NCBI GenBank assembly: GCA_031292275.1 | Contig: JARLHL010000054.1 | Location: 1-50,270, forward strand | Length of the DNA stretch: 50,270 nucleotides | Direction of reading: 5' to 3' | Origin: Desulfocapsaceae bacterium | GTDB taxonomy: Bacteria > Desulfobacterota > Desulfobulbia > Desulfobulbales > Desulfocapsaceae | Shown here: positions 4,156 to 8,890 of the stretch, piece after piece | Position numbering within the stretch: the stretch's first letter is position 1 | Layout: each line of letters begins with the position of its first letter | Made by a program: the position numbers and the translations under genes | Notes under the pieces: model-generated | The model's input: the letters and a program-made list of their open reading frames with translations, nothing else | Databases searched by the model: none | What the model was told of the DNA's origin: nothing

Positions 4156-5250
<1,095 letters not shown>

Positions 5251-5266
5251 GAGAGACGTGGCGCCC

Positions 5267-6187
5267 ATGTCCCATAAGGATGATATCATGATGGTGGCCA
5301 ATGAGGCCTCCACTGATCTGGGCCGCAAGGTCGCAGCGGCGCTGGACCGTCCCTTTTCGGAGATGGTCCGCAAACGCTTTGCCGATGGTGAGTGTTATCA
5401 TGCTTTTCCAGGCGATCTGGCGGGTAAGAAGCTGGTCATCATCGGCGCCACCCATGATGACGCCTCCTATCAGGAGCTGCTGGACCTGATCCAGGGCGGG
5501 CGATACTGGAATGCGGCCTCCGTCAATGTGGTCATCCCCTATCTCGGCTATTCCACCATGGAGCGGGCCAAGCCGGGCTCCAATGAGATACCCAAAGGGG
5601 TCACCCGGACCCGGCAGATCTTCCGGGCCAGGCCGGACTTCGTGACCTTCATCGATCTGCATTCGGAGGCGGTCCTGCATGCCCATGCCGGTGAGATCAG
5701 CACCTTCCACGCCTGGACCGATGCCCTGGCCGCAGAGAAGATCAGAAGCTGCGGGTTTTCCGACTTTGTTCTGGTTTCTCCCGACTACGGCTTTTCCAAA
5801 CGGGTGGCGAGGCTGGCCAGCATTCTGGGTTGTCCGCATACGGCGGCGGACAAGGACCGGTACGATGTCGACAAGACTATCGTCGGCCAGGTCTCCAGCG
5901 TGGTTCGGGGGCGGACGGCCATCGTCTGCGACGATATGATCAGGACCGGCGGCTCGATCATCCAGACGGCCAGGCGCTGTATGGAGGCCGGGGCCGTCGA
6001 GGTGGCGGTGATGGCCACCCATCTGGTGATTGCCGGGAATGCCAGAGAGCGTTTTCTGGAAAGCCCCATCACCCGGGTTATCGGTTCCGATACATATCCG
6101 GGTCGGGTCAGCGACGACCTGCTGGACATCTATTCAGTGGCGCCCCTGATCGCCGGGGTTCTCAAGAAACAGCTGAAACTGCCGTGA
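5267..6187 (+). CDS. Divergent ribose-phosphate pyrophosphokinase (PRPP synthetase) family protein
   Basis: The protein (306 residues from this start) has the two-domain phosphoribosyltransferase-like fold of PRPP synthetases: KRFADGECYHAFPGDLAGK early on, then FIDLHSEAV, and the PRPP-binding loop VCDDMIRTGGSI. The DLH motif is followed by SEAVLHAHAG where canonical enzymes have the conserved GFF-type sequence, so this is a distant member and may differ in regulation or substrate. Start choice is open: an ATG at 5288 (giving MMVANEAS) has AAGGA seven bases upstream and aligns better with the family N-terminus; 5267 has a weaker GAGAG. The gene follows leuB by under 20 bases and is probably in the same transcript. 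Confidence 0.8.
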   Translation: MSHKDDIMMVANEASTDLGRKVAAALDRPFSEMVRKRFADGECYHAFPGDLAGKKLVIIGATHDDASYQELLDLIQGGRYWNAASVNVVIPYLGYSTMERAKPGSNEIPKGVTRTRQIFRARPDFVTFIDLHSEAVLHAHAGEISTFHAWTDALAAEKIRSCGFSDFVLVSPDYGFSKRVARLASILGCPHTAADKDRYDVDKTIVGQVSSVVRGRTAIVCDDMIRTGGSIIQTARRCMEAGAVEVAVMATHLVIAGNARERFLESPITRVIGSDTYPGRVSDDLLDIYSVAPLIAGVLKKQLKLP

Positions 6188-6268
6188 TGCCGATTTTTAT
6201 GCCTTTCATCGGGCTCTGTTCCCTGTGTCTCCTTGTTCTTCCAGAGGAAATCTTCCGGCCATAATGCC

Positions 6269-8890
6269 ATGAAACAGGAAAACATAGCCCGCATCCTCAA
6301 GAAATCCATTCTCTTCCAGCAGCTGGAACAGAGCCAGTTGCAGAAGGCGGCGGCCATCGGACGTGTGGTGACCTTCAGGGAAGGCAGCTATATCTATCGC
6401 CAGAACGACCCTGGCGAAGGCTTTTATGTGGTAGCGGCCGGTGATGTGGCGCTTGTCCTGTCGCAGGAGAAGGGGCGGGAATGCGTAGTCAGCCGCATCG
6501 GTCCCGGCGGTCATTTCGGCGAGACCTCGCTGATCACCGGCAAGCCTCATTCCCTGGGGGCGAAAGCCAGCTGCGATCTGATCCTGGTTTGTTTCAACAG
6601 ACGGGTATTCTACGAGGATCTTCTCGGGGATGAGCTTATCCGTGAGCGGATGAATGTGGCCCTGGCTGAGAGGCTGCGGGTTTCGTTGCGGGAACAGGGT
6701 GATACGTCCGGCCATAAAGGAGGATCAGCAGGCACGTTCAACGCCGTGGACGAGCATGCCCTCTTCGAGGGGGCTCTGACTGATGATACCGGCGAGAAGA
6801 GTCTTGGCGCCAGCAGGATTTCTACTACCGCCAAACGAACCCAGAGCATCACCGGTCTCTTTGCAAAAAATCTTGATCCGGTCTTTTTGAACGGGGAATC
6901 CGGGACCGGGAAGAAGTTTCTGGCCAAACAGATCCACCTCCAGGGTGTCTATGCCCACGGACCTTACATTGAGATAGATCTCAGGGACCTGGAAGAGGAT
7001 GTGATGGCTGAGAAGCTGTTCGGCAACCAGCAGGACGCCTTTCCTTTCACCCACGCCAGGCAGTTGGGGATTTTTGAACAGTTCGGCAGAGGGACCGTCG
7101 TTTTACTGAATGTGGAATTTTTGAGTCTTCCTCTGCAGCAGAAACTGTTGAAGGCCATTGATGCGGGGAGCTTTACAAGGATTGGCGGCAGCAGACAGAT
7201 TCCCTTTCAATGCCGGGTGATCTTTGTCAGCGAAGAGGCTACAGAAAACCTGATCGCCTCGGATACCCTGCTCCCCCGAATGATTGAGGTCCTGCAGCGC
7301 CAGCATTACAGGGTGCCGCCGATTCGGGAGCATAGACGGGATCTTCCACGCTTGATTGAGCATTATCTTCGCCGGTACAGCCGGGAGTTCGGTAAAAACA
7401 TCCATAAAATTTCGCCGAATTCCATGGGAATTCTCCTTAATTACGATTGGCCCGGCAATCTGACGGAACTGGGAAGCGTGATCCAGAGGGCGGTGATGCT
7501 GGCCCAGAAGAACGAGATCCTCACCGATCAGATCCTTTTGGGGCTCCCCAAGACCGAAGGGAAGTGGGAGTTTAACATCCTGCGTATCCCCTGGGTCAAG
7601 GGCATTCTGCAGAGCAAGGTATTTCCGGCCTTTCCCAGGGCAGTCGTCGGATGTATCTTCCTTGCCGCGGTCCTGGCGCTCTTTTTCGGACCGAAGAATC
7701 CTGAAAAAAATATTGGCATAACCCTCAGTTGGATAATCGGCTGGCCCCTGCTCTATTTTTCCTTCTTTTTTCTGGCCAGACTCTGGTGCAGCGTCTGTAC
7801 CCTGGCGGTGCCGGGCCGGATTGCCCAGTCCATTGTGAAGCCGGAACGGAACACTCCGGAATTCATTAAAAAATATTCCGGCTGGATCATGGCCAGCCTC
7901 TGTATTCTCGTCCTCTGGGTGGAGATTGTCTTTGACGCCTATAATACCCCTTTCATCGGAGGCTGGGTGATTGTGGCCGTGACCCTCGGCTCATTTATCT
8001 TCAGCATCATTTTCAAGCGGCGGGTCTGGTGCCGATATGTCTGTCCGCTGGGCGCCATCAACGCCATTTTTGCCATGCCTTCGGTGCTGGAGTTGCGGGC
8101 CAATCGCCATCTCTGTCTGAACCGTTGCCGCCAGCATGTCTGTTTCGGCACCGAAAATGAGCAGGAGGGATGCCCCATGTTCCGGCACCCCTTCCTGGTC
8201 GACAACAACAGGGATTGCATCCTCTGCGCAAAATGCATCAAGAGCTGCAAGGAAAATTCCATCCACCTGAATCTCCGGCTGGCACCGCAGGAACTGTGGA
8301 GCCTTGAGACACCCAGACGGCCGGACAGCTTTCTGATTGTCGCCCTGGGAGCGATTTTTTTTCCTTTTGCCCTCCAGGGAAACTTCTTCAAAATGGTGGG
8401 TCGGGGGGTGGGATACCTCCATCCCGGTTTCGATATTCCGATAGCGGTGTCTGCAACGCTTGTCTTTTTCGGGTTGATCCTGCTTTTTGAGATCGGTTAC
8501 GGGGTGATGGTGGCGATACAGGCCCGATATACCGCAGTCAATAAGGATGTCCTGCTGCCCCTGCTCGGCTACGGCTTTATTCCGCTGATCCTTGGCTGCT
8601 ACCTGGGCGTCCACTTTGAACTGTTTGTCAGCGGGGCGTGGCGGATATGGCCGAATTTCCTTGACCTGATGGGGCTTGAGCCCGTTTATCAGGCACGGCG
8701 GATCCTGAGCCCTGACACCACGGCCGTTCTCCAGGCTATCACTGTTCTGGGCGGTATGCTGGCCTCCTTCTACGCGATCTTCAGGATTATGGCCCGTCTG
8801 AAAGGCAGCAGGAAATTCTCCTGGAAGATGCTGGCGCTTCCTTACAGCTTCATGATCGTCCTTGGCGGTCTGTCCCTCTCTATCATTTAG
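6269..8890 (+). CDS. Cyclic-nucleotide-binding / degenerate sigma-54 AAA / membrane polyferredoxin fusion
   Basis: Three modules are joined in about 873 residues. Residues 1-130 form a Crp-type cNMP-binding domain (FREGSYIYRQNDPGEGFYVV, then GGHFGETSLITGKPHS). Residues about 180-430 resemble a sigma-54 activator AAA domain: a Walker A GESGTGKK is intact near residue 209, but the GAFTGA loop reads DAFPFTHA and the Walker B acidic pair is lost (GTVVLLNVEF); DWPGNLTEL is kept. From about 440 come several membrane helices with a CSVC pair, a CRYVCP motif, clustered cysteines (CLNRC, CFG, GCP) and a ferredoxin motif CILCAKCIKSC near residue 651, like NapH/NosR. There is no C-terminal DNA-binding domain. 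It is probably a membrane redox protein gated by a cytoplasmic sensor rather than a transcription activator. The ATG at 6269 gives MKQENIARI; the ribosome site is weak. Confidence 0.85.
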   Translation: MKQENIARILKKSILFQQLEQSQLQKAAAIGRVVTFREGSYIYRQNDPGEGFYVVAAGDVALVLSQEKGRECVVSRIGPGGHFGETSLITGKPHSLGAKASCDLILVCFNRRVFYEDLLGDELIRERMNVALAERLRVSLREQGDTSGHKGGSAGTFNAVDEHALFEGALTDDTGEKSLGASRISTTAKRTQSITGLFAKNLDPVFLNGESGTGKKFLAKQIHLQGVYAHGPYIEIDLRDLEEDVMAEKLFGNQQDAFPFTHARQLGIFEQFGRGTVVLLNVEFLSLPLQQKLLKAIDAGSFTRIGGSRQIPFQCRVIFVSEEATENLIASDTLLPRMIEVLQRQHYRVPPIREHRRDLPRLIEHYLRRYSREFGKNIHKISPNSMGILLNYDWPGNLTELGSVIQRAVMLAQKNEILTDQILLGLPKTEGKWEFNILRIPWVKGILQSKVFPAFPRAVVGCIFLAAVLALFFGPKNPEKNIGITLSWIIGWPLLYFSFFFLARLWCSVCTLAVPGRIAQSIVKPERNTPEFIKKYSGWIMASLCILVLWVEIVFDAYNTPFIGGWVIVAVTLGSFIFSIIFKRRVWCRYVCPLGAINAIFAMPSVLELRANRHLCLNRCRQHVCFGTENEQEGCPMFRHPFLVDNNRDCILCAKCIKSCKENSIHLNLRLAPQELWSLETPRRPDSFLIVALGAIFFPFALQGNFFKMVGRGVGYLHPGFDIPIAVSATLVFFGLILLFEIGYGVMVAIQARYTAVNKDVLLPLLGYGFIPLILGCYLGVHFELFVSGAWRIWPNFLDLMGLEPVYQARRILSPDTTAVLQAITVLGGMLASFYAIFRIMARLKGSRKFSWKMLALPYSFMIVLGGLSLSII

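Follow-up and report, generated by a model that had tools for sequence, protein, structure and literature searches.

The window analyzed here is a 50,270-nucleotide stretch of DNA from a Desulfocapsaceae bacterium (assembly GCA_031292275.1, contig JARLHL010000054.1, positions 1 to 50,270), and the gene under study is an open reading frame on the forward strand at positions 6269 to 8890, which joins a Crp-like domain, an AAA domain of the sigma-54 activator type and a membrane iron-sulfur module. The frame lies within a stop-to-stop span of 900 codons (6188 to 8890) and encodes one intact protein of 873 amino acids. This 3-part layout had been proposed in an initial annotation, and it was confirmed by the open frame of 873 codons and by Pfam matches to cNMP_binding (residues 34 to 116, 64 bits), Sigma54_activat (195 to 334, 98 bits), AAA_lid_14 (353 to 422, 68 bits) and Fer4_5 (565 to 602, 27.5 bits), along with weak matches to Fer4 (4Fe-4S) at residues 644 to 666 that fell below the cut-off. 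A DNA-binding or helix-turn-helix domain was not found in the query with Pfam at E-values up to 1, in agreement with the initial annotation, and no C-terminal DNA-binding domain was found in 11 fused relatives scanned with Pfam at an E-value of 0.01 or 0.001. The window's own genome contains a single copy of the fusion, 35 other AAA matches and one nucleotide-cyclase match (PF00211). The features of the locus are listed in Table 1.

Table 1. Features of the fusion gene and the gene directly upstream of it.
Feature	Position in window	Strand	Basis
Whole gene, 873 amino acids: Crp-like domain, pseudo-AAA domain and membrane iron-sulfur module	6269..8890	+	Open frame; fused relatives
Crp-type domain (cyclic nucleotide monophosphate (cNMP)-binding fold), residues 1-135	6269..6673	+	PF00027, 64 bits; Phe-Gly-Glu present; His94 in place of the cyclic-phosphate Arg
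AAA core with lid of the sigma-54 activator type, residues 195-424, without the catalytic motifs	6851..7540	+	PF00158, PF25601; NtrC1, DmpR and PspF by sequence and fold
Walker A GESGTGKK, residues 209-216, intact in query	6893..6916	+	
Loop 1 DAFPFTHA, residues 256-263, at GAFTGA position	7034..7057	+	Aligned to seven activators from its own genome
GTVVLLNVEF, residues 275-284, at Walker B position, without Asp-Glu	7091..7120	+	
Hinge LGLPKTEGKWEFNILR, residues 424-439, from lid to first membrane helix	7538..7585	+	Conservation 0.933 over 30 rows
Membrane module, residues 441-873; predicted nine helices, N-terminus inside, iron-sulfur loop cytoplasmic	7589..8887	+	Models; charge distribution
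First cysteine motif WCSVC (CX2C, Cys507/510)	7784..7798	+	Both Cys in 34/34 rows
Second cysteine motif WCRYVCPLG (CX3CP, Cys588/592)	8027..8053	+	Both Cys in 34/34 rows, Pro in 33/34
Ferredoxin-like loop, Cys616, 620, 625, 635 and Cys650, 653, 656, 660; two candidate 4Fe-4S sites	8114..8248	+	Eight Cys in 34/34 rows
Divergent phosphoribosyl pyrophosphate (PRPP) synthetase-like gene, directly upstream, 81 bp gap	5228..6187	+	Pfam; conserved neighbor

Distribution of the fusion

The fusion was identified in 17 of 38 related genomes, that is, in 16 of the 37 besides the window's own (3 of them single-contig), with identities of 29% to 77%. It was also present at 19 loci in named genomes, which by their titles belong mostly to Desulfobulbaceae and Desulfocapsaceae or to genera of these families; seven of these loci were identical to loci in the related genomes. 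Coverage of other phyla came from plasmids and one scan of genome contigs. Two complete plasmids, from Pseudanabaena galeata and Aulosira laxa, carry the fusion; in no other of the 2356 matching plasmid records did one place cover 80% of the query.

Within the phylum, 395 genomes were searched with a membrane-module profile, and 75 of them gave a match at an E-value of 1e-20; some of these genomes are also among the 38 related ones. An AAA domain was detected in the same frame with an AAA profile in 20 of the 75 (the window's own included), i.e., in 20 of the 395, while two further long frames with the membrane module contained no AAA domain; frames that were not fetched were judged too short for an AAA domain by length alone. 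A second fused paralog, about 45% identical, was found at loci L027, L028, L029, L040, L042 and L046, and several genomes (for example G005, G016 and G021) contained a fused paralog in addition to the ortholog, on contigs other than that of the PRPP-synthetase-like gene. It was also noted that in a metagenome-assembled Desulfofustis (L047:1004-3645) the fusion was split over two overlapping frames, owing to either a frameshift or a sequencing error.

The initial annotation had allowed for a chimera of assembly, with homologs split at about residue 430. Instead, the relatives were fused, though stand-alone membrane modules exist too. An assembly chimera or a pseudogene might be suspected from the 114 contigs of the assembly and from the broken frame at L047, but this explanation is refuted by the fusion in the 16 other related genomes and on the 2 complete cyanobacterial plasmids, and by the low ratios of nonsynonymous to synonymous substitution (dN/dS) in the domains.

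Motif loss in the AAA domain and variation of the input domains

Motifs were counted in 59 distinct fused AAA domains, and 7 ordinary activators from the genome of the window served as a control. The control comprised 7 of the nine other AAA loci of that genome (L002 to L010); L002, which was missed by the extraction pattern, and L009 were left out, and both show GAFTGA-like and Asp-Glu patterns. L051, L023 and the partial L107 were omitted from the AAA motif counts, and L051 and L023 from the counts for the cNMP domain. The roles of the AAA motifs other than GAFTGA are those generally known for these families.

The GAFTGA motif was present in none of the 59 fused domains, as compared with 6 of the 7 ordinary activators (FTG in all 7), and loop 1 of the query reads DAFPFT. 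Likewise, the Asp-Glu pair of Walker B was seen in 0/59 fused and 7/7 ordinary domains, with the Asp alone in 2 and the Glu alone in 1 of the fused domains; in the query, which reads GTVVLLNV, the pair is replaced by Leu-Asn. Both losses had been recognized in the query by the initial annotation, and they turned out to extend across the fused family. Two further patterns, of the arginine finger and of the sensor-II Arg, went unmentioned in that annotation and were lost as well (each 0/59 against 7/7), the query having GNLTEL for GN[VI]REL. Walker A is intact in the query (GESGTGKK), as had been stated, but this does not hold as a feature of the family: GxxxxGK was found in 37 of the 59 domains, Arg replaced the Lys in 16, and 6 deviated otherwise. 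A NifA protein with a Thr to Pro change in GAFTGA is inactive (PMC4641369), and the query has Pro at the place of this Thr, in addition to further changes. A surviving sigma-54 activator is ruled out by the motif counts, and the proviso that the AAA domain might still bind sigma-54 found no support, the tested sigma-54 and ATPase motifs being lost in 59/59 domains. Judged by its sequence, the AAA domain appears to be catalytically dead.

Despite the changes, the domain is recognizable by sequence, with matches to 6iy8 (CapR/DmpR, E-value 2e-34) and 1ny6 (NtrC1, E-value 6e-34), and an AlphaFold2 model of moderate quality, based on 19 sequences (predicted local distance difference test score 71, predicted template modeling score 0.48), gave NtrC1, DmpR and PspF as its best PDB matches. 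The fusion thus resembles bacterial enhancer-binding proteins (NtrC/NtrC1, DmpR and PspF) in the fold and sequence of the AAA core and lid (PF00158 and PF25601; up to 33% to AAA matches of its own genome), but differs from them in the absence of GAFTGA, the Walker B Asp-Glu, the arginine finger, the sensor-II Arg and a helix-turn-helix domain, and in that its C-terminus is a membrane module. Activators that lack GAFTGA have been described, namely NtrC of Caulobacter and Rhodobacter and VspR, and for NtrC of R. capsulatus ATP binding rather than hydrolysis is reported (PMC10274813). These share with the fusion family the loss of the sigma-54 loop, but according to the same source they remain transcription regulators.

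Purifying selection was observed on the AAA core in close pairs, with dN/dS values of 0.06 to 0.26 in the 6 of 9 pairs for which it was computable (dS was saturated in the other three), and on the lid, with values of 0.02 to 0.26 in 8 of 9 pairs; the linker at residues 136 to 190 was looser, with values up to 0.74. The family alignment omits L001, which is the window itself, L047 because of its broken frame, and seven loci that were duplicates. The most constrained parts of the protein were the lid, the hinge, helices 1 to 4 and the ferredoxin loop. The hinge (LGLPKTEGKWEFNILR) had a mean modal-residue fraction of 0.933 and was among the 12 best 16-residue segments of the protein, the highest values, up to 0.956, being found around the cysteine motifs. 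Since the mean for the AAA core was only 0.55, the joint between the AAA domain and the membrane module matters. A tree of the AAA domains separated 61 fused domains from 13 ordinary activators with 99/99 support, and the simplest reading of the sequences would therefore be a single loss of motifs followed by long retention.

The N-terminus of the query matched regulatory subunits of protein kinase A in a sequence search of PDB (E-value 4e-19). As in the Crp/Fnr regulators, it has a Crp-type fold with Phe-Gly-Glu, of which the Gly is kept in 32 and the Glu in 30 of 32 aligned rows. In contrast to these regulators, the query has no helix-turn-helix domain, and an Arg that we take to be the cyclic-phosphate-binding residue of cNMP domains is not conserved in the fusion family: the 32 rows, query included, have Arg in 10, His in 13 (His94 in the query), Gln in 5, Asn in 3 and Tyr in 1. 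Because neither this residue nor the Walker A Lys is kept throughout, the fusion protein may or may not bind cNMP or ATP, and the response "to a nucleotide or ATP" that the initial annotation suggested is a weak reading.

In the phylum survey, the Crp-like domain was present in the AAA-fused members except for L107 and L109, both of which end at a contig edge. Further domains, of kinds that usually serve as input modules, have been added in some fused proteins: GAF in L085 and L087 and FHA in L108 and L112. Variable inputs on a constant core of AAA domain, hinge and membrane module have the look that is usual for an effector with swapped sensors.

The membrane module, its relatives and the gene neighborhoods

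Twelve cysteines of the membrane module were invariant in the 34 aligned rows, which include a stand-alone Deinococcus protein and the cyanobacterial proteins. In the query they form the patterns WCX2C, WCRYXCPXG, CX3CX4CX9CP and CX2CX2CX3C. The last of these, at residues 650 to 660, is clear, whereas CX3CX4CX9C at residues 616 to 635 is unusual, and its spacing varies among relatives although its four cysteines do not. Structure models and the distribution of charges suggest nine helices, with the N-terminus inside and the ferredoxin loop in the cytoplasm. The loops placed inside have on average 3.3, 5.5, 12.5, 2.6 and 1.9 Lys and Arg residues, as compared with 1.0, 0.3, 1.1 and 1.7 for those placed outside, although the loops are unequal in length and the large inside loop also contains 8.5 Asp and Glu residues.

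The helices of NapH have been proposed to be a quinol-oxidizing domain, in an account that describes the module as common to NapH, NosR and RdhC (PMC5928378). The query resembles these proteins in helices 1 to 4 with two cysteine motifs, and NapH and NosR in its candidate ferredoxin-like sites, so far as they are described in that account (PMC5928378). The query differs from them in its first motif, which is CX2C rather than CX3CP (the second does conform to CX3CP), in the five-helix bundle that follows the ferredoxin loop, and in its cytoplasmic Crp-AAA half. It also has no Pfam match to a flavin mononucleotide (FMN)-binding domain, in contrast to NosR and RdhC, and its match to the NapH/MauN family of NCBIfam at residues 552 to 667 (45.7 bits) is far below the TIGR02163 cut-off of 213.05. 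The initial label of a NapH/NosR-like module is thus apt as to NapH and loose as to NosR, given the first motif and the missing FMN domain. A profile search with the membrane module gave only weak ferredoxin-type matches, the best with an E-value of 0.005. A count of three clusters was considered and dropped, since in relatives the motifs of the CX3CP type may be without a cluster (PMC5928378).

In a tree of 77 membrane modules, from which matches under 150 bits were left out, the AAA-fused state (59 rows) requires two changes, and 2 to 3 in bootstrap trees. The cheapest reading of the sequences, which is not proof, would be one fusion and one later loss, the latter in nine nested stand-alone modules. 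Nine rows branch outside the part of the tree with AAA domains. Four of these are stand-alone, no domain was recognized in L123, and the remaining four carry a redox or metal domain at the N-terminus. The N-terminal domains, which precede an extra helix, are a cytochrome c with CXXCH (L118), a cupredoxin (L133) and YHS domains (L119 and L120), and by hydropathy they are probably exported. The protein at L133:2409-4274 (genome G071) has its cupredoxin (CSVICGPLHPFM) fused to the membrane module, with Pfam matches to Cupredoxin_1 and COX2, and this domain is presumably CuA-like. Clustering placed NapG- and NapH-like genes next to L111, L119, L120 and L123; at L119, the one neighborhood scanned, these are accompanied by a gene for a molybdoenzyme of the kind of NapA and formate dehydrogenase, and all of them score below the NCBIfam cut-offs. 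Because relatives carry redox or metal domains and have Nap-like and molybdoenzyme neighbors, an electron-transfer role of the membrane half is likely. The stand-alone modules L104, L105 and L113 lie directly after trpA at the end of an apparent trp operon, as seen from the clusters and from Pfam on L104.

The PRPP-synthetase-like gene upstream of the fusion is the second copy in its genome, 27% identical to the other copy. In all 14 other genomes that possess the orthologous fusion, the gene again lies immediately before it, the match ends being 12 to 212 bp apart. Matches at 65% to 89% were found in 26 of 37 other genomes, but 12 of the 37 contain the gene without the fusion, and G032 and G033 contain a fusion without a close ortholog of the gene; for these reasons an operon link between the two was set aside in the mechanism considered below. 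The gene picker used for clustering neighbors sometimes took the wrong strand (for example at L038, L042, and the window's leuB and PRPP-synthetase-like genes), so the synteny counts were made separately.

On the cyanobacterial plasmids (L049 and L050), the fusion lies directly before a cysteine synthase gene, with genes annotated as psbA and the cytochrome b6-f Rieske protein nearby, and the Pseudanabaena plasmid (L049) also has genes annotated as rhodanese and DsrE in this neighborhood. These neighborhoods possibly represent an island for photosynthesis in sulfide or low oxygen.

Elsewhere in the window, genes read by eye as hisD, rsmG and leuB lie further upstream than the PRPP-synthetase-like gene, and positions 483 to 890 encode a protein of the Desulfoferrodoxin family with an apparent twin-arginine-type export signal, RRDFLK, also read by eye. 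An 84-bp tandem repeat at positions 3 to 311 (3.3 copies, 95% matches) sits at the edge of the window, with two of its frames open.

Possible functions of the fusion protein

The compared sequences themselves show the architecture and how widely it has been retained, the loss of catalytic motifs, and selection on all parts. We tentatively propose, as a reading that falls a little short of an even chance, that this is a membrane protein for quinone-linked electron transfer under the control of a signal, in which the pseudo-AAA domain is a transmitter acting through the hinge. Its C-terminal half would be a NapH-like, quinone-linked module, with helices 1 to 4 carrying the two cysteine motifs at the cytoplasmic face, followed by a cytoplasmic ferredoxin loop with two clusters and by the extra five-helix bundle. 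The Crp-like domain, together with GAF or FHA in some relatives, would take in a cytoplasmic signal. The AAA domain, without ATP hydrolysis or contact with sigma-54, would have been kept as a transmitter, possibly ring-forming, and would act on the membrane module via the conserved hinge, so as to open or close the passage of electrons between quinone and a partner in the cytoplasm or the membrane. For topology, cluster count, quinone use, oligomerization, gating and its direction, this is what we infer. We hold somewhat more doubtfully the broader idea that an AAA domain stripped of its ATPase and transcription functions serves as an allosteric transmitter, by which Crp-like, GAF and FHA or phosphorylation signals switch quinone-linked electron flow on and off post-translationally.

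The initial annotation had suggested that a regulatory scaffold was reused to gate electron flow. The reuse of a dead activator scaffold stands, and gating would be the most economical reading, because the input domains vary (Crp-like alone, with GAF or with FHA) while the AAA domain, hinge and membrane module stay the same.

Several observations weigh against gating as proposed. The tree of the membrane modules is midpoint-rooted and has several long branches. It contains the nested clade of nine stand-alone modules, which have seemingly lost the AAA domain, and four more stand-alone rows outside, and the existence of such modules means that the membrane part can work without the AAA part. 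Both the P-loop Lys and the cyclic-phosphate Arg vary across the family, the iron-sulfur loop is poorly modeled, and a Foldseek search found no solved structure like the membrane module at an E-value of 0.001 or better. Furthermore, neighbors differ between lineages, and of the co-occurring dehydrogenases that the initial annotation had envisaged none was constant, nor was any other dehydrogenase or reductase partner in the neighborhoods examined.

The same architecture could operate in reverse, as a sensor in which the redox state of quinone or clusters moves the pseudo-AAA and Crp-like half and so signals to a separate kinase or ordinary activator. We regard this as unlikely, though it would also accommodate the N-terminal redox domains of the relatives and would suit the genes next to some fusions: L090 adjoins genes for a histidine kinase and for a sigma-54 response regulator of the ordinary kind, L088 has the same arrangement by clustering and motifs, and Ser/Thr kinase genes adjoin L108, an FHA form, and lie near L121. 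However, Pfam detected no fused output domain in the query or in the 11 fused relatives, no constant partner gene was seen, and FHA and GAF, being usual input modules, point to the membrane part as the effector.

Less likely again is an assembly or docking platform, with the dead AAA domain as a structural scaffold for a larger respiratory or biosynthetic complex and no switching. The drift of P-loop and ligand residues, while the lid, hinge, helices 1 to 4 and ferredoxin loop are the most constrained, would suit such a platform, but a plain scaffold needs neither the Crp-like domain, which is kept in the fused members other than the 2 at contig ends, nor the extra sensory domains found in some of them. 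That the protein is a membrane-held anti-activator, whose dead AAA subunit joins the rings of ordinary activators and blocks or sequesters them by redox state, is highly improbable: the fold does match NtrC1, DmpR and PspF and there are 35 other AAA matches in the same genome, but the fused domains differ from ordinary ones in the arginine finger, in sensor II and in loop 1, the two groups are well separated in the tree, and the fusion occurs in two cyanobacteria, a group that is not known to have sigma-54.

The fusion consists of known parts in a new arrangement, and no account of a Crp-AAA-membrane iron-sulfur architecture was found in the open-access literature searched, as judged mostly by titles and the beginnings of abstracts. 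Proteins of this kind that match PF00158 can be named as regulators, and one cyanobacterial relative is annotated as 'nitrogen assimilation regulatory protein'. What defines NtrC-type activators is that they use ATP to remodel the sigma-54 polymerase; here, a large branch of activator AAA domains, apparently of one origin, has lost the motifs for the sigma-54 job, kept the fold under selection and become joined to a membrane iron-sulfur module. That the fusion is kept in many sulfur-cycling bacteria suggests that a part used in gene control has been reused to control membrane electron flow. If gating is true, respiration would be gated post-translationally by a domesticated transcription-factor domain, and cytoplasmic signals in anaerobes would have a direct route to electron flow that bypasses gene expression.

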